This document shows, piece after piece, positions 28,855-58,794 of a stretch of DNA of 64,000 bases (position 1 is the stretch's first letter; every line of letters starts with the position of its first letter). Under the pieces are notes generated by a model that was not told the DNA's origin, made no database searches, and was given only the letters and a program-made list of their open reading frames with translations. The stretch covers positions 62,001-126,000 of the forward strand of contig JAHDXL010000006.1 in NCBI GenBank assembly GCA_023382935.1. Reading direction: 5' to 3'. The DNA comes from Phycisphaerales bacterium. Its GTDB lineage: Bacteria > Planctomycetota > Phycisphaerae > Phycisphaerales > UBA1924. The position numbers and the translations under genes were made by a program.

Positions 28855-30213
28855 ATGCCAATCCACCCGCTGCCTCAGTTCGAGGAAGACCTGCGGACGC
28901 TTGAAGAGGAGCGTCGCGCGATCGAAGCGCTGCGTCCACCCAGGACAATCGTGGTGCGCTTCGGGCTGATGGGGCTGATTGGCGAGTACCCCTACCGGGG
29001 TGACGCCACGCCCGGCTGCGGTTCGAAGATCGTGGTGCGCACTCATCGCGGAATCGAACTGGGAGACATGCTCACGAGCACCTGTCCCAACGCGGGGTGC
29101 TCCAAGTCGGTTTCGCGTGAAGACATGCTCGAATACATCGAGCGCTCGGGCGGACGGCAGTACCCGTTCTTCAACAACGGGCGGGCCCTGCGCGTGGCGA
29201 CCATGGAGGATCTCAAGCGGCAGGAGCAGATCGACAGCATGCGGGCTGACCTGCGCCGGCAGGCGCGCGAGGTGGCCGAGCGCATCGGCTTCCCGCTCAA
29301 GATCGTCGACGTGGAGCCGATTCTCTCGGGCGACCGGCTGACGGTGTACTTTGCCAGCGAGGACCGGGTGGATACCCGTCCGCTGTCGCAGGAACTGGCC
29401 ATGGCCTTCCAGGTGCGCGTCGACGTGCGGCAGATCGGCGCGCGGGACGAGGCACGCCTGGCGGCCGACTACGAGCGCTGCGGGCAGTACTGCTGCTGCA
29501 AGAACTTTCTCAAGGTGCTCAAGCCGATCAGCATGAAGGCGGCCAAGACCCAGAAAGCCACGCTCGATCCGCTGAAGATCAGCGGTCGCTGTGGCCGCCT
29601 GATGTGCTGCCTGCGCTACGAAGAGCAGACCTACGAAGAACTGCGCAAAAACCTGCCCAAGCGCAAGACGCGGGTGGGCACGCCCGATGGCGACGGGATC
29701 GTCATTGATTCACAGATTCTCACGCAACTGGTGCTGGTTCTGCTCGATTCGGGCAAGCAGGTAGCCGTGCCGATCGAGCAGTTGACCGAGCCCGGGCTCG
29801 AGCGGACCCCGGCGCTTGCGCCCGAGGTGGTGCGCCGGCCGGAACGCGGGCCGCGTCCGGAAAGCCGACCCGAGCGGGTCGAACAGGAGCAGCCCGACGT
29901 CGGCGAGCCGGTCCAGACGCCCGAGCCGGGCGAGCAGCCACGCAAGCGCAAGCGGCGTCGGCGTCGCAAGCCTCGGGAGGAAGGCCTGCCCGGGCCGTCG
30001 GGGGGGGCCGTCGCGACCGGACCTGGCGAGCAAGAGGGTGGTGAGCCGGAATCGTCGTCTCGCGAGGATGGCGCCGAAGGCGGGCTGGAGGGCACGACCG
30101 CCGCAGGCGAAAGGTCCGGGGGCGAAGGCGAACGTCCGCGCAAGCGTCGGCGCCGTCGGCGGCGCAAGCCCCGCGAGGACGGGCAGGGTCCGGCCCCAGC
30201 GCCCGAAGCCTGA
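28855..30213 (+). CDS. PSP1-domain protein, RicT/YaaT-like
   Basis: The 452-residue protein has the Cys-rich PSP1 core at about residues 200-260: RCGQYCCCKNFLKVLKPIS, then LKISGRCGRLMCCLRYEEQT. In firmicutes, RicT/YaaT proteins of this family form a complex that binds Fe-S clusters and affects RNA processing and phosphorelays. Upstream CGSKIVVRTHRGIELGDML is also family-like. The C-terminal 150 residues are low-complexity, with two Arg/Lys blocks (RKRKRRRRRKPREEG; RKRRRRRRRKPREDG) separated by acidic Gly/Glu-rich stretches, which suggests RNA binding. It lies 20 bases before signal peptidase. Confidence 0.82.
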   Translation: MPIHPLPQFEEDLRTLEEERRAIEALRPPRTIVVRFGLMGLIGEYPYRGDATPGCGSKIVVRTHRGIELGDMLTSTCPNAGCSKSVSREDMLEYIERSGGRQYPFFNNGRALRVATMEDLKRQEQIDSMRADLRRQAREVAERIGFPLKIVDVEPILSGDRLTVYFASEDRVDTRPLSQELAMAFQVRVDVRQIGARDEARLAADYERCGQYCCCKNFLKVLKPISMKAAKTQKATLDPLKISGRCGRLMCCLRYEEQTYEELRKNLPKRKTRVGTPDGDGIVIDSQILTQLVLVLLDSGKQVAVPIEQLTEPGLERTPALAPEVVRRPERGPRPESRPERVEQEQPDVGEPVQTPEPGEQPRKRKRRRRRKPREEGLPGPSGGAVATGPGEQEGGEPESSSREDGAEGGLEGTTAAGERSGGEGERPRKRRRRRRRKPREDGQGPAPAPEA

Positions 30214-30233: not shown

Positions 30234-31844
30234 ATGCCCGACGAACCAGCCCGCAAGACATCGATCAAGGAAACGCTGACTTCGATCATGATCGCCTTCA
30301 TCGTGGCGCTCGTGTTCCGCGGGTTCGTGGTCGAGGGCTTCCAGATCCCCACCGGCTCGATGGGCCCGACGCTGCTGGGCGCCCATGTCCGCGTGCGCAG
30401 CGACATGAGCGGGTATGAGTGGCCGCTCGAACCCTGGGCGCGGTCGGCCAACAACGTGCCGGAGCGCTTTCAGCCGGCGCTGACGCCCCACGATCCGATG
30501 ACCGGCATCGAGATGCCGGCTAGGGATTACGCCACGCTCTCCGGCGATCGCGTGTTCGTGTACAAGTACCTCGAGCCGTTCCACGGGCCGCAGCGATGGG
30601 ATGTGACGGTTTTCAAAGTGCCGACCGGGGTGCAGGAGAACTACATCAAGCGCCTGATCGGAATGCCCGGCGAACAGGTGGCGCTGGTCGATGGCGACGT
30701 GTTCACGCACGTGGGCGAGCGCACGCCGGTCGGCTGGGACGCCCCCGGCTGGGTGGTGCAGCGCAAGCCCGAGCGGGTGCAGCGGGCGGTCTTTCAGCCG
30801 GTGTTTGACGCCCGCTACACGCCGCCGAACAGCGCAACGTTCCGCTCGCCCTTTCGCGGCGCCACGCCGGGGTGGAGGGACATCAACGCCAGCCCGACGT
30901 GGAGTTTCGATCGGGCCGGGCAGACGCGACTGGAGTGGCTCAATAGCAACTTCCGACTGGACGACTACCTGTCGTTCAACGAGATGCCGGCCGGTGGGCA
31001 ATGGTGGAGCCGCGAGGATTCACGCTCGTACCCGGTGTCGGACGTGTCGATGGGGTTCGGATTTGAGCCGCAAGACGATGGGGCGCGCGTGGGCGTGGTG
31101 CTCGAGGCACGCGGATATGAGTTCCGAGGCACCATCGGGCCCGATGGCGCGGCCGTCGAAATGCGTCCACAGACTGAGGACGGCTCGGCAGCGTGGATGA
31201 GCGTTGATGCGTCGGCCCGAGGCGGGTTGCTCAAGGGGGGGCGAATCACCAACATCGAGTTCTGGCACGTGGACCAGGCGTTGTGGCTGTTCGCCGACGG
31301 CGACCTGGTGGCCGGCGGGCCCAAGAGCGGGGCCTACGACTGGAGCATTGGCACGCGCCTGAGCAACGCGACTGGGCGGGACATCCTCGCCGCGCTGGCC
31401 GAGCAACCCAGGTACCCGCTCAACAACACCACGCTGTATCGCGAGCCGCGGCTGAGCGCGGAGTTCGCCGGCCCGGCTTTCCGGGTTCACAACATGCGGG
31501 TGTGCCGCGACCTGTTCTATCGCCCGGAGAACTTCGGGCGCACCTCGTGGCCGGGAGACCCGCTGACCGCGCCGGGACAGCCGGGGCTGGGCACGCACCC
31601 GAATGCGCCGATGCTGCTGGGCCCGGACGACTTCTTCCTGTGCGGCGACAACAGCGCGCGGAGCCTCGATGGGCGCTTGTGGGGCGGGGCGCACCCGATG
31701 GTGGTGGAGAAGGTGGGAACCGGGCCTGGTCGCGTCAGCCGCACCATGCTCATCGGGCGCGCATTCTTCGTGTACTTCCCCAGCCCGCAGCGGCGCTTCG
31801 GCCTGCCCGTGCTGGACTTCGGGCGGATGCGGTGGATCTGGTAG
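30234..31844 (+). CDS. lepB: Signal peptidase I with large internal insert
   Basis: LepB removes signal peptides from exported proteins at the outer face of the inner membrane. One membrane segment (SIMIAFIVALVFRGFVVEGF) precedes the catalytic serine Ser42 in FQIPTGSMGPTLLG. The general base Lys139 lies in NYIKRLIGMPGEQVALVDG, and the conserved box E is DDFFLCGDNSARSLDGRLWG near residue 470. The protein has 536 residues, against about 200-330 usually. Inserts lie between boxes B and D, and mainly at about 165-455, where a beta-rich region includes ITNIEFWHVDQALWLFADGD. The enzyme would serve the many secreted proteins encoded to the right. Confidence 0.92.
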   Translation: MPDEPARKTSIKETLTSIMIAFIVALVFRGFVVEGFQIPTGSMGPTLLGAHVRVRSDMSGYEWPLEPWARSANNVPERFQPALTPHDPMTGIEMPARDYATLSGDRVFVYKYLEPFHGPQRWDVTVFKVPTGVQENYIKRLIGMPGEQVALVDGDVFTHVGERTPVGWDAPGWVVQRKPERVQRAVFQPVFDARYTPPNSATFRSPFRGATPGWRDINASPTWSFDRAGQTRLEWLNSNFRLDDYLSFNEMPAGGQWWSREDSRSYPVSDVSMGFGFEPQDDGARVGVVLEARGYEFRGTIGPDGAAVEMRPQTEDGSAAWMSVDASARGGLLKGGRITNIEFWHVDQALWLFADGDLVAGGPKSGAYDWSIGTRLSNATGRDILAALAEQPRYPLNNTTLYREPRLSAEFAGPAFRVHNMRVCRDLFYRPENFGRTSWPGDPLTAPGQPGLGTHPNAPMLLGPDDFFLCGDNSARSLDGRLWGGAHPMVVEKVGTGPGRVSRTMLIGRAFFVYFPSPQRRFGLPVLDFGRMRWIW

Positions 31845-33557: not shown

Positions 33558-34883
33558 TTACGGGCATCCGGCCGCAAAAGCCTGGAGAAACGCTTGAACG
33601 TCAAAAAAGTCGAACAGCCCGTCGGTGGCCAGATCGGCGCGCGGGTCGTGTGCGGCGAACGCCCCCAGAAACTCCTGCACGTCAAAGAAATCCAGAACCC
33701 CGTCTCCGGTGAAGTCGGGCGTGCAGTCCTCGACCGGCGTGGCGACGAACACGCCGATGGTGCCGTTGTGGAGGAATGCGGCGAAGGCGACCTGTCCGGC
33801 GTCGTTGATGGCGATGACACCGCTCATCACCTGCTTGCCCGTGCCGCCCCCGAAGTCGAAGCCAAATGTGAGCGGGCCCAGATCGGTCTGGACGACCTGT
33901 CCATACTCGACGATCTTGATCAGCCCGTCGCCATCGCCGACCCACAGGGCGGTGGAGACCGCGTCGCTGGCGCGCAGAGCGACCAGCCCGCCACTGTTCA
34001 CGACGGGCGGGAAGTTGGCGATGGAGGAATCGACGATGCCCAAGTCGCCGCCCTGTGCGATGCGCGTTTCGCTGGCGCCGTCGGCCCGCATTACCTGCCA
34101 GCGTGAGTCGGCGGTGCGCCGTCCGGAAAAAGCGACCAGCCCATTCTCGGCCAAGGCGATCGAATTGACGAACGCATTGTAAACCGCGCCGGTCTGCGCG
34201 ATGGTGGTGCGTGCTCCTCCCGGCTCCCAGCGGATGATCGCCTGGCCCCCGGCCTGGGGGAAGACTTTGCCGGCCATCTGTCGCGCGTCGTTGAGTCTAG
34301 GGCTGAACAGGTAGGAATACAGCCCGTCGTACGTGTTGGCAACCTGCGTCTGCGTGCGCACACCGGAGACGTACTGGTCAATGATGTTCTTCTGCGCGCT
34401 GCCGAAGTCGCCGCGATAGCCAAGGGCCGCGTCTGAGGTGATGGAGACAGACGAGAAGCCGGTGACCCCTTCGGGCCCGCCGGGTGCAAAGTACTGCACC
34501 AGGGCGCCGCTCGTGTCGCGCACCTCGACGCCGCTGAAGAAGATCGGCAGGGCGATTCGGCCATGGCGCAGGGCGATGCCGGTGGAGTAGTAGGGCTCGC
34601 TGCTGTTGACGGTGTGGACCAGTCCGCCCGAGCCGTGGCGGCCGTAGAAGACGCCTTCGGTGGCGTTGGGCAGTCCGAGGACCACGCGGATGGCCACGCC
34701 GCCATCGTCGTCGAGCGCGACGTATTGGCTGGAGAGCGAACTGCCGATGGGCAGGTTGAACGCGGGGGTGTTGGGGTCGAGGCTCGAGCGGCACTGGAGT
34801 TCGAAAGCCCAGTGGGCTGGCGGGGCCGCGTAACCATGGGCGGCAGCGCACGCAACGGCCACGGCCAACGGATGCGTGGACAT
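33558..34883 (-). CDS. Secreted beta-propeller-like protein with GC-type dockerin tail
   Basis: The N-terminus reads as a short signal peptide (MSTHPLAVAVACAAAHGYAA), and GAGGAG lies before the ATG at 34883. The middle 350 residues hold repeats in which N-x-x-G-x-V-A-F/L motifs recur (SIALAENGLVAFSGRR, PPVVNSGGLVALRASDA, IAINDAGQVAFAAFL). That pattern is common in uncharacterised planctomycete secreted propellers. The tail has both halves: DFTGDGVLDFFDVQEFLGAF and DLATDGLFDFFDVQAFLQAF, ending AAGCP. Ligand or enzyme activity is unknown. Confidence 0.75.
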   Translation of the reverse strand: MSTHPLAVAVACAAAHGYAAPPAHWAFELQCRSSLDPNTPAFNLPIGSSLSSQYVALDDDGGVAIRVVLGLPNATEGVFYGRHGSGGLVHTVNSSEPYYSTGIALRHGRIALPIFFSGVEVRDTSGALVQYFAPGGPEGVTGFSSVSITSDAALGYRGDFGSAQKNIIDQYVSGVRTQTQVANTYDGLYSYLFSPRLNDARQMAGKVFPQAGGQAIIRWEPGGARTTIAQTGAVYNAFVNSIALAENGLVAFSGRRTADSRWQVMRADGASETRIAQGGDLGIVDSSIANFPPVVNSGGLVALRASDAVSTALWVGDGDGLIKIVEYGQVVQTDLGPLTFGFDFGGGTGKQVMSGVIAINDAGQVAFAAFLHNGTIGVFVATPVEDCTPDFTGDGVLDFFDVQEFLGAFAAHDPRADLATDGLFDFFDVQAFLQAFAAGCP

Positions 34884-40052: not shown

Positions 40053-40784
40053 CTAGGGGCAGCCGAACGCGAACGCCGCAAGGAATGCCTGCACGTCGAA
40101 GAAGTCGAACACGTCGTCACCGTTGAAGTCGGCCGCCGGGTCGTGATCGGCAAGCGCGGCCAGGAAGGCCTGCACGTCGAAGAAGTCGAGCAGGCCGTCG
40201 GAGTTCATGTCGGCAAGGCACAGGTCGGCCATCAGTCCCCAGGCCACGTTGTCGATGATGGCCCAGCCCGCGGTGGCGGTTTCGCGGACGCGGACGTGCG
40301 TGATGCCGGCGGGGTGCCGCCACCCGACGAAGGCCTCGCCGCCAGGGAGGAGATCGAGTTCGACGGTTCCCAGCACATCCTCGCCGTGAGAAAAGGTCAC
40401 CACGTCGTGATACATGACGTTGCCGGTGATGCTCACCACGTCGAGGCCGACAGCCTGTTGCGGCTGGTCGAAGGCGATGAGCAGATCATCACCACCGGCC
40501 AGGACGTTGCTGTCATCCCCCCACACAAAGGACGCATAGACGCGCAGCCAGTGCGGGCTGGAGTAGGTCACGCCTGGCATGATGCCCCAGCCTGCGGGCT
40601 GTGTGGCCGAGTTGAGCGGGTTGGGGGCTGCCACGCTCGTGCCGCCGTGGATGCTGAAACCCTCAAAGTCCTCGAGTACGAGGGCGTCGCCGAGGACGGC
40701 CTCGAGCTGGGCCCGCGTCTCGATCGGTTGGGCCGTTGCAACTGGCGCCACGGCAGCGATGGTCATGCTGATAAGTCGCTTCAT
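40053..40784 (-). CDS. Small secreted protein with GC-type dockerin tail
   Basis: The 243-residue product starts at ATG 40784 with GGAGA upstream. It has a signal peptide (LISMTIAAVAPVATAQP) and one domain of about 160 residues containing LVLEDFEGFSIHGGTS and ITHVRVRETATAGWAIIDNV, which resembles a carbohydrate-binding jelly roll. The tail halves are DMNSDGLLDFFDVQAFLAAL and DFNGDDVFDFFDVQAFLAAF, ending AFGCP. It begins 25 bases after the stop of the beta-helix gene, so the two are likely in one transcript. Confidence 0.78.
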   Translation of the reverse strand: MKRLISMTIAAVAPVATAQPIETRAQLEAVLGDALVLEDFEGFSIHGGTSVAAPNPLNSATQPAGWGIMPGVTYSSPHWLRVYASFVWGDDSNVLAGGDDLLIAFDQPQQAVGLDVVSITGNVMYHDVVTFSHGEDVLGTVELDLLPGGEAFVGWRHPAGITHVRVRETATAGWAIIDNVAWGLMADLCLADMNSDGLLDFFDVQAFLAALADHDPAADFNGDDVFDFFDVQAFLAAFAFGCP

Positions 40785-40809
40785 CGCCAAGTCTCCGCGG
40801 TGTGACGAT

Positions 40810-42543
40810 TCAAGGACAGCCGGCCGAGAAAGCCGCGAGGAACGCCTGCACGTCGAAGAAATCGAAGACAGCGTCGTCATTGAAATCAGCCGCCGGGTCG
40901 TGGCTGGCGAAGGCCGCCAGGAAGCCCTGCACGTCGAAGAAGTTCAGTTGACCGTCCGAGTTGAAGTCGGCCACGCAGGCGCTGGCGACGACGACCTCGA
41001 ACACGCCCATGTCGACGATGGGCGCCGAGCCGGCGCCGGTGTCGGGGGTGGCCAAGTCGTCGGTTCGACGGGCATTGCCGGCCAGATCGAGCGTCACCCA
41101 TGCTGGTACAGCCGCGTTTCTGCCCGCATCGATGCACGGCGAGCCGGGCAGCAATGTAAAGTTGGCGCCCAGCATCGGATTGCGGTCGATGCACCCGGGG
41201 AGGTTCTCGGGGTCGATCGAGTCCTCTCCCACCGCCGCTGGGCCGAAGATCAGCGCGACGCACGAGTACTCCAGGTCGAACGAGCCGTTGATGTGGGTGC
41301 GCCAGTAGCCGGAGATTTCCGGGTGCGTGGCGGTGTTACCCCAGATGATCGAGTTGGAAATGTTCATGTGCCCGTTGGAGTAGGTCATCAGCGCGTGTTT
41401 CTTCCCGTGGTTGTTGAGGAAATCGCAGTTGATGATGCGGGCCGTGGCGCCCGCGAAGGAATAGACCAGGAGGGCCGCTCCCTCGCCTCCACCTTCGGGA
41501 TATGGGTCGCGAGGCTGAATGGTGGCGGTGTTGTTCTCGAACAGGCAGTTGACGATGGTGACGTTCTGCCAAGCCATCAGGCCCGCGCCATAATGAGCCC
41601 GATTGCCACGGAACACGCAGTCAATGACAGTGGTCGGCGGAGAGAAAATATGGAGCCCGCCTCCCCAGCAGGTGATGTTACCAACCGACCAGAAGCCGCG
41701 GTTGATATTGTCTTCGAACACGCAGCGACGGATGGTCACCGGGTCGTCATTCCACAGCGAGACGCCGGCCCCGGTGGCCTCAAAGTCGGCGACGGTTTCA
41801 TTGTCGTAGAACACGCAGTCTTCGAGAATGGGCGCGCCTGAGCCATAGGCGGAGAGCCCACCGCCGCTGCCAAGGTGAACATAGTTGCTCTCGAAGCGGC
41901 AGTTGCTGAACGCCGGCGAGCCGTCCTGTGTGTAGACCCCGCCCCCGTGCGCGAACGCCGCGAGATTGTGGCGAAAGACGCAGTTGCGGACGGTCGGGCT
42001 GCCGCCGATGTTGTACAGGCCGCTGCCGAACATGAGCGGGTCGCCGGCCGACGTACCGACCGGCCCGGTGTGCCCGAGTTCCACGATGAAGCCATCGAGA
42101 ACGCTGGAGCGGTCGACGCCCGAAGAGACGACCACATGGCCGCAGTTGGAGGTGTTGACCAGCCAACCGACCGGCCAGGCCGGCCCGACGCCGGTGTCAT
42201 CCTGGTTGACGTCGCCGGAGAGGATGGTTGGGTTGGCCAGCCAATTGCGCTGGTGGCGTTGTGTTTCCGTGCCGTTGAAACCGCCGTAAAGCGCCACGCC
42301 GGGGCGCATGTGGAAGGATGAGGTGGCGTCTCCAGTCTGTGAGGGCACGTAGACGCCGGAGCGGACCCAGATTTCATCGCCCGGCTGGGCCAAGGCCAGA
42401 GCGGTTTGTAGGTCGCGGAATGGCGATTCCCAGGACTGGCCGTCGCCACCACCCGACGAAGCGCTGACGTAAATGACATCGCCGAGGGCAGCGGTGACAA
42501 AGAGCAGCGTGCTCGCCACGATGTGGGCTGTGCGATTCAGCAT
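40810..42543 (-). CDS. Right-handed beta-helix protein with GC-type dockerin tail
   Basis: The 577-residue product starts at ATG 42543, nine bases after GGGAG, with a signal peptide (RTAHIVASTLLFVTAALGDV). A polymorphic-outer-membrane/pectate-lyase-type opening follows (VSASSGGGDGQSWESPFRDL; ALYGGFNGTETQRHQRNW). Then come repeated beta-helix turns such as PTVRNCVFRHNLAAFAHGGG and TTVIDCVFRGNRAHYGAGLM, and a closing GSPCIDAGRNAAVP. Such helices are often surface or polysaccharide-related. The tail is DFNSDGQLNFFDVQGFLAAF and DFNDDAVFDFFDVQAFLAAF, ending SAGCP. Upstream in-frame starts overlap the next gene and are rejected. Confidence 0.87.
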   Translation of the reverse strand: MLNRTAHIVASTLLFVTAALGDVIYVSASSGGGDGQSWESPFRDLQTALALAQPGDEIWVRSGVYVPSQTGDATSSFHMRPGVALYGGFNGTETQRHQRNWLANPTILSGDVNQDDTGVGPAWPVGWLVNTSNCGHVVVSSGVDRSSVLDGFIVELGHTGPVGTSAGDPLMFGSGLYNIGGSPTVRNCVFRHNLAAFAHGGGVYTQDGSPAFSNCRFESNYVHLGSGGGLSAYGSGAPILEDCVFYDNETVADFEATGAGVSLWNDDPVTIRRCVFEDNINRGFWSVGNITCWGGGLHIFSPPTTVIDCVFRGNRAHYGAGLMAWQNVTIVNCLFENNTATIQPRDPYPEGGGEGAALLVYSFAGATARIINCDFLNNHGKKHALMTYSNGHMNISNSIIWGNTATHPEISGYWRTHINGSFDLEYSCVALIFGPAAVGEDSIDPENLPGCIDRNPMLGANFTLLPGSPCIDAGRNAAVPAWVTLDLAGNARRTDDLATPDTGAGSAPIVDMGVFEVVVASACVADFNSDGQLNFFDVQGFLAAFASHDPAADFNDDAVFDFFDVQAFLAAFSAGCP

Positions 42544-49817: not shown

Positions 49818-50990
49818 CTATGGGCAGCCCGCCGAGAACAGCGACAGGAAACGCTGCACGTCAAAGAAGTTGAGCGTTCCATCCGCAATAAAATCGGCCC
49901 GCAGGTCGCCGGAGGAGAACCAGTTGAGGAACGTCTGTACGTCGAAGAAGTTCAGCGTCCCGTCGTGATTCACGTCCGCCAGACACCCGTGGACGAGCAT
50001 GAACGCCGCCGGCCATCCGTGGTGCGTGCCGACGCCGACGATCTCGCCGCTGTCGTTGATCCCATTGGCCGCCCGCAGCACCCAGCCGGAAGCCGGGTCG
50101 ATGAGGTCGTTCAGATCGAGCATCTGGCTTCCATCCCAGAGGAACGCCCGATCGTCCGACGTGCCGACTACCATGCCCTGGTTGTTGATCGCGCGCCCGT
50201 AGGACATGTTGCCGCCCAGCGACCCGAGATCCTGCCGCGACGTCACGCTGCCGTTCAGCGCGACCTGGAAGATGAAGGCGTGGGGACGCCCTGAAGCGGT
50301 TTGGGCGTGCCCGGTGACCTGGCGTGCGTCGTTCACGTCCATCGCCTGCGAGTCGAGCCCGCCGAGCGTTCCCAGGTCATGCGCCGCCCCGTCACTCCAG
50401 AGCACCGCGTGCGTGTGCATTTCGCCGGCGAGGTGCGCCGAGCCGACCGCGTCCCCGTGCGCGTTGACCGCAAGTCCCATGGAGTGGGTTCCGCCCAATC
50501 CAGGCAGGAGCGACAGTGAGCCGCCCGAATGCACGCACGCCTGCCGTGCGACCCAGCCCGAGGCAAGCGTCACCGGCGCCCAGCCGACGATGGTCCCGGC
50601 CGCGTTGATGTCCCGCGGCGAGAAATCGCCCAGCGACGTAAGCGCCCCGTCCTCAATCAAGAGCGCGTGCGGCGTCAGCGTGCCCGTCGAAAAGGACACC
50701 GCCGCGATGCGCGACCCCGCGCCGGCGAAGGCCACCGCGTCCTGGTCGCCCAGCAGCGGCGGATAGATCGTCGGGACCGCGTCGTCCCACGCGATCGCTC
50801 GGAATCGAGAGCCGTCGTATACGGCGCTGGTCGCCGTTCCAACCGCACGTCCCGAGTTGTCGATGCCGAAAGCCTGCGAAAACACGGGCCCCGGCGAAAG
50901 GTCGATCACGGTATACGTCTGCGCAAACGCCACGCTGGAAGCCAGACCCGCGAGCACGCAGATCGGCAGATGAGTGAACTTGGTGTTCAT
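49818..50990 (-). CDS. HAF-repeat extracellular protein with GC-type dockerin tail
   Basis: The 390-residue product has a signal peptide (LPICVLAGLASSVAFAQ) and the spaced HAF/HAVLW repeats of probable extracellular HAF proteins: DINAAGTIVGWAPVT, HTHAVLWSDGAAHDLGTLGG, DVNDARQVTGHAQTASGRPH with AFIF, and AINNQGMVVGTSDDRAFLWD. The tail is DVNHDGTLNFFDVQTFLNWF and DFIADGTLNFFDVQRFLSLF, ending SAGCP. It begins 29 bases after the stop of the heptaheme cytochrome gene, so the two are probably co-transcribed. The role of HAF repeats is not established. Confidence 0.84.
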   Translation of the reverse strand: MNTKFTHLPICVLAGLASSVAFAQTYTVIDLSPGPVFSQAFGIDNSGRAVGTATSAVYDGSRFRAIAWDDAVPTIYPPLLGDQDAVAFAGAGSRIAAVSFSTGTLTPHALLIEDGALTSLGDFSPRDINAAGTIVGWAPVTLASGWVARQACVHSGGSLSLLPGLGGTHSMGLAVNAHGDAVGSAHLAGEMHTHAVLWSDGAAHDLGTLGGLDSQAMDVNDARQVTGHAQTASGRPHAFIFQVALNGSVTSRQDLGSLGGNMSYGRAINNQGMVVGTSDDRAFLWDGSQMLDLNDLIDPASGWVLRAANGINDSGEIVGVGTHHGWPAAFMLVHGCLADVNHDGTLNFFDVQTFLNWFSSGDLRADFIADGTLNFFDVQRFLSLFSAGCP

Positions 50991-57336: not shown

Positions 57337-58794
57337 ATGCGTTATTCGATGACCGCCGTTGCTGTTCTGATTTCATTGGCCGGGCTGGCCGTCGCCCAAT
57401 CCACCCGTCACGTCGCGCAAACCCTGCCTGAAGGCTCTGGAATTCTGGTGGAACACGGAGCGGTGGCGCCCGTTCAACGCGGGTTCGCTCCCAGGGCCGG
57501 CGTGCTCTGGACCTACAACGACCCGGTCTCCATTCCTGAGTCGGTCGCGCTCGGCGATCACGGCGACGATTCCTGGGTCGCCCACTGGCTCAACGACGAT
57601 CGCGTCAGCCACTTCGATACTCCCGGCCCGGGCACGCCCGACTTCGTCCACGCGCTGACGGCCGAGAACCCGGACGTCATCGGCGTCGAGGCCGCCCGTG
57701 ACCGCTCGCTCATGGCGGCCATCTACTGGCGCGGCGGCGTGCCCGTCGCGGTCCGCGCCTTCACCGAGGTCGGCGGCTCAACCCCGCTGTGGACCTACAC
57801 GTTCGGCGCCAATTTCACCAACTCCGGGCAGCATGCCGTCGACGTCAACGACGATGGCTCGCGCATCGCCGCCTGCGCCTACGACGGCGCCAACACCAAA
57901 CTCGTCCTGCTCGACGACACCGGCAACCAGATCAACTCAACCACCGTCGCCGGGTACTGCGGCGGCGTCGAACTCTCCGGCGATGGCTCGCGCATCCTCG
58001 TCACCGCCGGAGACACCGCAAGACTCTACGACGCCGCGACCATGACCGAGATTTACTCGCTGGCGGCCTCGGGTTCTGGCGGATTCCACCGCATCTCGCG
58101 TGACGGCTCGGCCATCGCCTGCGGAGGATTCAACATCCGCGCCGCCCGCGAAATCGGCGGCGTCTGGCAGGTCGTCTACAACGGCTTCGGCTCCAGCCAG
58201 TGGTTCGGCTGGGGGGTTGCCCTCTCCGGCGACGGGCGCACCCTCTTCACCGTCGCCCACAACTACGTGTCCGGCTACCTTCCCAATGAACACCGCCTTG
58301 TCGACCTGACCACCGGTTCCCAGATCGGCTCCTGGACCTACACCGGCATCGGCTCGCTCCAGAACTCTGTCGCAGGCGCCGAAGCGAACGACGACGGCAC
58401 GATGTTCGTCGCCGCCTCGTGGGGTGATCTGGGCAACACCCAGCCCGAAGTCCGCATCCTCGACCGCAACCTCACGATGATCGGCTCGATTGATACTGCC
58501 GGTTCGCCCTTTGATGTCGACATGTCCGCCGATGGCAGATATGTCCTCGTCGGCACCAAGGCCGTCCACGCCAACACCTTCGGCAACGGCGGCAACACCT
58601 ACCTCTATGAGAACGACGTGGCCTCGTGTGTGCCCGACCTCAACGGCGACGGCATCCTCGACTTCTTCGACGTCCAGTTGTTCCTGAGTCTCTTTTCGGC
58701 CCACAACCCGGCCGCCGATCTCAACGCCGACGGCAACTTCGATTTCTTTGACGTCCAGTTGTTCCTCAACCTGTTCAGCGCGGGCTGCCCCTGA
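57337..58794 (+). CDS. Secreted WD40/YVTN-like propeller protein with GC-type dockerin tail
   Basis: The 485-residue product starts at ATG 57337 after GAGGAAGGAG and has a signal peptide (MTAVAVLISLAGLAVAQS). The body has propeller repeats with D-G-S-x-I/L motifs: DVNDDGSRIAACAYDGANTK, LSGDGSRILVTAGDTARLYD, LSGDGRTLFTVAHNYVSGY and MSADGRYVLVGTKAVHANTF. The tail is the clearest in the window: DLNGDGILDFFDVQLFLSLF and DLNADGNFDFFDVQLFLNLF, ending SAGCP. A strong terminator follows. Ligand unknown. Confidence 0.86.
   Translation: MRYSMTAVAVLISLAGLAVAQSTRHVAQTLPEGSGILVEHGAVAPVQRGFAPRAGVLWTYNDPVSIPESVALGDHGDDSWVAHWLNDDRVSHFDTPGPGTPDFVHALTAENPDVIGVEAARDRSLMAAIYWRGGVPVAVRAFTEVGGSTPLWTYTFGANFTNSGQHAVDVNDDGSRIAACAYDGANTKLVLLDDTGNQINSTTVAGYCGGVELSGDGSRILVTAGDTARLYDAATMTEIYSLAASGSGGFHRISRDGSAIACGGFNIRAAREIGGVWQVVYNGFGSSQWFGWGVALSGDGRTLFTVAHNYVSGYLPNEHRLVDLTTGSQIGSWTYTGIGSLQNSVAGAEANDDGTMFVAASWGDLGNTQPEVRILDRNLTMIGSIDTAGSPFDVDMSADGRYVLVGTKAVHANTFGNGGNTYLYENDVASCVPDLNGDGILDFFDVQLFLSLFSAHNPAADLNADGNFDFFDVQLFLNLFSAGCP

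Follow-up and report, generated by a model that had tools for sequence, protein, structure and literature searches.

A long-form type I signal peptidase gene

In the window, the whole stretch of 64,000 nucleotides that was analysed, the gene at 30234–31844 on the forward strand starts with ATG and encodes a long-form type I signal peptidase (SPase I; S26A/LepB family) of 536 amino acids. The protein was matched by Pfam PF10502 (E 7e-24, 85 bits against a cut-off of 22.9, split over three stretches) and by NCBIfam TIGR02227 (71.9 bits against a cut-off of 47, in pieces), and a PDB sequence search retrieved E. coli LepB, again in three pieces. These matches bore out the enzyme identity given in the original prediction. 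The SPase profiles match in split pieces because a cap is inserted into the protein.

A hydrophobic stretch at residues 11–28 (30264–30317, +) probably forms a single N-terminal transmembrane helix; AlphaFold2 also placed a helix at this position, with pLDDT below 50 there. Three motifs follow, those named box B, box D and box E. The catalytic Ser42 (codon 30357–30359, +) is part of PTGSM in box B, the catalytic Lys139 (codon 30648–30650, +) is part of YIKR in box D, GMPGE occupies residues 143–147, and box E reads GDNSARSLDGR at residues 471–481 (31644–31676, +). In an alignment of 70 sequences, consisting of the SPase of the window and 69 relatives (three partial proteins and identical copies were left out), TGSM and [YF][IV]KR were found in all 70 sequences and GDN in 69, the remaining one (L047) ending too early. 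Ser42, Lys139 and box E are intact, and their residues and coordinates had been read correctly from the DNA. With the profile cut-offs passed and both the Ser/Lys dyad and the GDN of box E (residues 471–473) present, the product of 30234–31844 is a type I signal peptidase. It represents a genuine variant of this known enzyme that runs through the lineage.

The upstream neighbour is a PSP1-domain (RicT/YaaT-like) gene at 28855–30213 (+), with 20 bases between its end and the start of the SPase gene. In 28 of 70 relatives a PSP1-domain gene likewise lies next to that for the SPase; in 35 it was not found there, and in seven the flank was too short; the two genes possibly form a conserved operon.

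The protein differs from E. coli LepB in the length of two spacers. From the end of GMPGE to GDN (residues 148–470; 30675–31643, +) there are 323 residues compared with 118 in E. coli, an excess of about 205, and the spacer from TGSM to YIKR measures 93 residues compared with 51; the E. coli spacers were taken from the PDB alignment with the same borders as for the SPase of the window. Compared with a compact planctomycete LepB (L090), 334 residues instead of 62 separate the Lys motif from GDN, an excess of about 270. Both the insertion of about 290 residues between boxes D and E and the smaller one before box D, as originally described, were therefore confirmed. Long spacers recur in the relatives, with 88–120 residues from TGSM to YIKR (69 relatives aligned) and 283–354 between boxes D and E (the 68 of 69 that are complete through box E), so that the long form is no chance product. 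These relatives were fetched with the long protein as query, which compact enzymes escape; the latter were caught by the family searches. Domain II of signal peptidases is a non-catalytic cap, which the available part of PMC4049620 describes as variable in size and as having no conserved motifs. Since the large insert takes the place of domain II, it was read as an enlarged cap.

Predicted fold and conservation of the large insert

An AlphaFold2 model of the SPase, built with 14 relatives, had a mean pLDDT of 68.8 and a pTM of 0.75, with high values in a beta-sandwich within the insert; most of the catalytic part had pLDDT below 50, too low to position the cap against the active site. Residues 150–470 modelled alone reached a mean pLDDT of 78.1 and a pTM of 0.82. 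In this second model, 16 of the 25 ten-residue blocks of residues 180–429 had pLDDT of at least 85; values were lower at about 240–269 and 370–409, and fell below 50 at 254–258, 387–395 and 430–445. Residues 185–427 (30786–31514, +) are predicted, from the model and from structure comparison, to form a concanavalin A-like/LamG/L-type lectin jelly roll.

Foldseek against the PDB matched the predicted sandwich, at E 1e-6 to 1e-4, to structures that included the endo-levanase BT1760, CBM66 (TM-score by target 0.61–0.63), galectins, GH16 enzymes and the receptor-binding domains of clostridial neurotoxins. VIA-align 2, run on the top 1000 structures from Foldseek, gave ERGIC-53 as the best match (Z 14.4, 3.2 A over 165 residues, 5% identity), followed by residues 471–668 of galactocerebrosidase, CBM66, Emp46, VIP36, legume lectins and GH16. 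The 50 entries listed had Z of 12.0–14.4 over 141–181 residues at 4–11% identity, mostly covering residues of about 185–428, and also included thrombospondin-1, an alpha-amylase inhibitor and a mosquito surface protein. With such proteins among the entries, the comparison names a fold and not a ligand. The original prediction had likened a beta-rich part of the insert with ITNIEFWHVDQALWLFADGD to a ligand-binding sandwich: the sandwich stood, since a lectin/LamG/ConA-like fold is predicted and ITNIEFWHVDQALWLFADGD (residues 338–357) forms a hairpin of it, but the ligand did not follow, as a shared fold shows none.

The Pfam scan of the window insert gave no match. Among 31 insert members one matched Laminin_G_3 (E 0.019) amid other chance-level matches, and three of ten distant inserts gave sub-threshold matches, to Laminin_G_3 (E 0.0026 and 0.061) and 3keto-disac_hyd (E 0.0034); unrelated families were matched by inserts too. 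PDB profile searches with two insert profiles retrieved galectins weakly (E 0.002 and 0.09), and the search with the E 0.002 galectin match contained DNA ligases at a slightly better E of 0.0014, which we take for chance. Naming the insert from sequence alone was given up, there being no Pfam match above cut-off and PDB profile matches that were weak and in part chance-like. The sequence comparisons point weakly in the same direction as the structural ones.

The membrane and catalytic segments carried a mean of 2.4–3.6 bits of information per site, apart from 1.6 bits in a short stretch at residues 487–497; the large insert had 1.2–2.2 bits up to residue 430 and 0.9 in its last linker. Compared with the nearest relative, dN/dS was 0.14 in the large insert and 0.04 in the core. 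The corresponding values were 0.21 and 0.09 against L005, and 0.24 and 0.20 against L006, which are rough figures with synonymous sites near saturation. The large insert is under purifying selection. Six of its residues (K178, Q183, D270, D347, R425 and D426) are invariant in a 31-row alignment of the insert, and by the predicted secondary structure four of the six are located in a turn or where strands end, which fits a structural role. High-scoring positions, some of them aromatic or charged (K178, Q183, F187, F248, N249, W344, H345, Q348), could mark a binding site. A disordered or poorly conserved insert, the contrary case named beforehand, was ruled out by the alignment, the information per site and AlphaFold2: the insert is conserved and for the most part a confidently predicted sandwich.

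These observations bear on what the cap does. The jelly roll might be a working lectin that binds envelope glycans or glycosylated preproteins and thereby positions the peptidase or selects its substrates, in the manner of the cargo lectins of the eukaryotic secretory pathway. Carbohydrate binders or carbohydrate-active enzymes do make up most of the nearest solved folds (ERGIC-53, VIP36, Emp46/47, CBM66, legume lectins, GH16, galectins), two profiles show the weak galectin similarity in sequence, and the host encodes many exported proteins, as seen from its GC-dockerin matches. However, a shared fold shows no function, with thrombospondin-1 and the alpha-amylase inhibitor in the same listing, the DNA ligases outscore the galectins in the same profile search, and the location of four of the six invariant residues suits a structural role; we consider a working lectin unlikely. 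A passive enlargement of domain II, serving folding stability and having neither partner nor ligand, would agree with the variable size of domain II across signal peptidases in the available part of PMC4049620 and with segment means of 0.9–2.2 bits per site in the insert compared with 2.4–3.6 in the segments with the catalytic motifs. Set against it are the retention of the insert in 166 of 195 genomes of the phylum, its six residues invariant in 31 rows and the purifying selection, which leave this explanation rather doubtful, though worth keeping in view. We favour a cap that acts as a platform.

The small insert after box B

The shorter addition covers residues 50–103 (30381–30542, +) and had 1.5 bits of information per site. 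Over its 54 codons dN/dS was 0.04 against the nearest relative, 0.54 against L005 and 0.29 against L006. The original prediction had overlooked that this segment, although without cysteines, looks like a zinc knuckle. Two CxxC pairs are present in outer lineages (e.g., L053, L055, L057 and L129), and the corresponding positions in the SPase of the window are S56, S59, D87 and T90, so that both pairs are absent from its small insert. Across the 70 aligned rows, the commonest residues at these positions were Ser, Thr, Asp and Thr; Cys occurred there in 8, 8, 5 and 6 rows, respectively, and Gly60 and Pro88 were each kept in 68 of 70 rows. In the distant long-form SPase of L129 (1420–2223 (–) and upstream), a second pair of CxxC-type motifs was seen directly ahead of the Lys motif.

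With the columns of the Cys positions left out, we computed a quick, unrooted tree of 82 rows, L129 not among them. Nineteen rows had both CxxC pairs and 63 had none, a distribution that needs three changes on the tree compared with a mean of 17.3 after shuffling. The SPase of the window falls in a clade of 61 rows, none of which has the pairs. Because the cysteines are spread outside this clade, the pairs appear to have been lost in it, rather than gained elsewhere. The small insert is probably a zinc knuckle in the relatives and a cysteine-less relic in the SPase of the window.

Distribution, exported proteins and comparison with known signal peptidases

Protein searches found relatives of the SPase in 60 of 61 nearest-kin genomes and in 145 of 148 genomes of the class. 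PF10502 matched 193 of 195 genomes of the phylum and the insert profile 166, with no match in the other 29, which bears out the conservation across planctomycetes that the original prediction had proposed to examine. The best 30 insert-profile loci, that of the host genome included, all lie inside SPase frames, 29 as judged by a script (box B, Lys motif and GDN) and L129 by eye. Both additions, the jelly roll between boxes D and E and the small knuckle, are widely distributed in Planctomycetota.

A second, normal LepB had been suggested as a check, and none was found in the host genome with PF10502 or TIGR02227; this genome is 95.4% complete, so 4.6% of it may be missing. In a 317-aa frame of the host an archaeal-type TIGR02228 match was seen at 18.7 bits, below threshold (G000:C1:481571–481834). 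Among 20 hand-chosen genomes of the same order, a single long form was alone above the TIGR02227 cut-off in 17, including all 16 that belong to the family of the window; three of these 16 (G012, G072, G086) had a second match below threshold. In addition to their long form, G181 and G051 have a compact LepB, and G056 has two long forms. Neighbouring pairs of long-form matches were seen at L032 and L040 and in the genomes G082, G089, G094, G100 and G105. Tandem or extra SPases in some relatives may reflect some division of labour. For Kuenenia, the available part of PMC2881027 reports one SPase I and calls the Sec and Tat components canonical.

A crude signal-peptide scan of the 39 genes of the window found 23 with an N-terminal hydrophobic stretch, 11 of which had A-x-A behind it, and a scan of 322 genes gave 79 calls; the home-made caller, applied to this single genome, also catches membrane helices, places some sites wrongly and requires Ala, Gly, Ser or Cys at –1. 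An altered cleavage motif was considered, and no sign of one appeared in these scans of window and C1 genes. As far as these proteins indicate, the SPase would cleave AxA-type signal peptides. Gln was the commonest residue directly after the crude cleavage sites (11 of 79, compared with 3.2% at +3 to +12), in contig C1 1–400000 and, in the window, at 40056–40880, 49821–50990 and 57337–58791; this may resemble the Q-rule of Bacteroidetes given in the available part of PMC5837995. Since the enzyme is the sole SPase I found and the exported proteins are of AxA type, no specialised clientele is apparent, and the selection or docking of substrates by the insert, as first suggested, is not supported. 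Single copy and AxA-type exported proteins make it most likely that the enzyme is the general (housekeeping) SPase I of its host, a Phycisphaerales-like planctomycete.

Ten proteins of the window (32068–58791) have at their C-terminal end two copies of an EF-hand-like motif of the type DG.LDFFDVQ.FL..FSAGCP, for instance those at 33561–34883 (–), 40056–40880 (–) and 57337–58791 (+); all four that were checked pass the NCBIfam dockerin_GC cut-off. One motif scan counted ten doubled-motif proteins in the 64 kb window compared with five in 400 kb of contig C1. The ten proteins and the 112 GC-dockerin matches of the host genome would be in keeping with a peptidase specialised for GC-dockerin-anchored secreted proteins. 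Twenty long-form genomes, likewise hand-chosen (in 15 of them the insert was seen within an SPase frame; G347, G333, G318, G315 and G328 by insert profile only), were compared. More than 100 matches were found in three, all of the family of the window (112, 126 and at least 150), 2–12 in five, and none at E 0.001 in twelve. All 17 sampled genomes outside this family therefore carry the long form with at most 12 matches, on which grounds the dockerin peptidase was rejected; in addition, the searches of the host found no SPase I but the long form. We regard such a specialisation as extremely improbable.

Taken together, we judge it likely that the gene encodes a housekeeping SPase I with a ConA-like cap, serving as a platform and not as a sugar reader, and a cysteine-less knuckle. 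The single membrane helix would anchor the enzyme, which is presumably active, and the Ser42/Lys139 dyad would cut exported proteins at AxA sites of the ordinary kind. In place of the smaller domain II, boxes D and E would enclose a lectin-type jelly roll, about 243 residues long, and its linkers; the knuckle after box B would bind zinc in relatives, its cysteines being gone in the SPase of the window. We infer that the cap is mainly a periplasmic protein-protein or steric platform above the active site, which would hold the enzyme, the translocon or the emerging preprotein. A more far-reaching version, in which a functioning built-in lectin domain recognises a planctomycete envelope glycan, or one carried by preproteins, and couples glycan state or location to signal-peptide removal, and the former knuckle is a second docking or regulatory site, seems to us improbable.

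Bacteria usually cannot do without SPase I, which is a drug target. To our knowledge, its variable cap has no settled function. The literature searched, which covered few subscription papers, contained no description of a planctomycete SPase with a lectin fold or zinc knuckle. Across most planctomycete genomes sampled, the cap has turned into a predicted lectin-type fold. In the family of the window the sole SPase I found has this cap, which makes the role of the cap directly testable, and the kept or lost cysteine pairs are a marker for tracing planctomycete SPases. The system is of no new kind: the enzyme is a known one whose cap architecture recurs, and it is of interest to specialists on SPases and planctomycetes.

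The long SPases of chlamydiae and Bacteroidetes are said to have large insertions between boxes D and E as well. With ConA-like folds (ERGIC-53/VIP36, CBM66, galectins, Laminin_G_3) the insert is predicted to share the jelly roll, whereas it is 4–11% identical in sequence to the entries matched, gave no Pfam match and is embedded inside a peptidase. The compact planctomycete LepB enzymes (L090 and the second genes of G051 and G181) belong to the same family and phylum as the long form, but L090 is without the large inserts (52 residues from box B to the Lys motif, 62 from there to GDN). E. coli LepB (PDB 1B12, 1T7D, 1KN9) has the same Ser/Lys dyad and the same order of motif blocks, and its boxes D and E are likewise separated by a non-catalytic domain; it has two membrane helices, whereas the SPase of the window has one probable helix, longer spacers and a cap predicted to be of lectin type.
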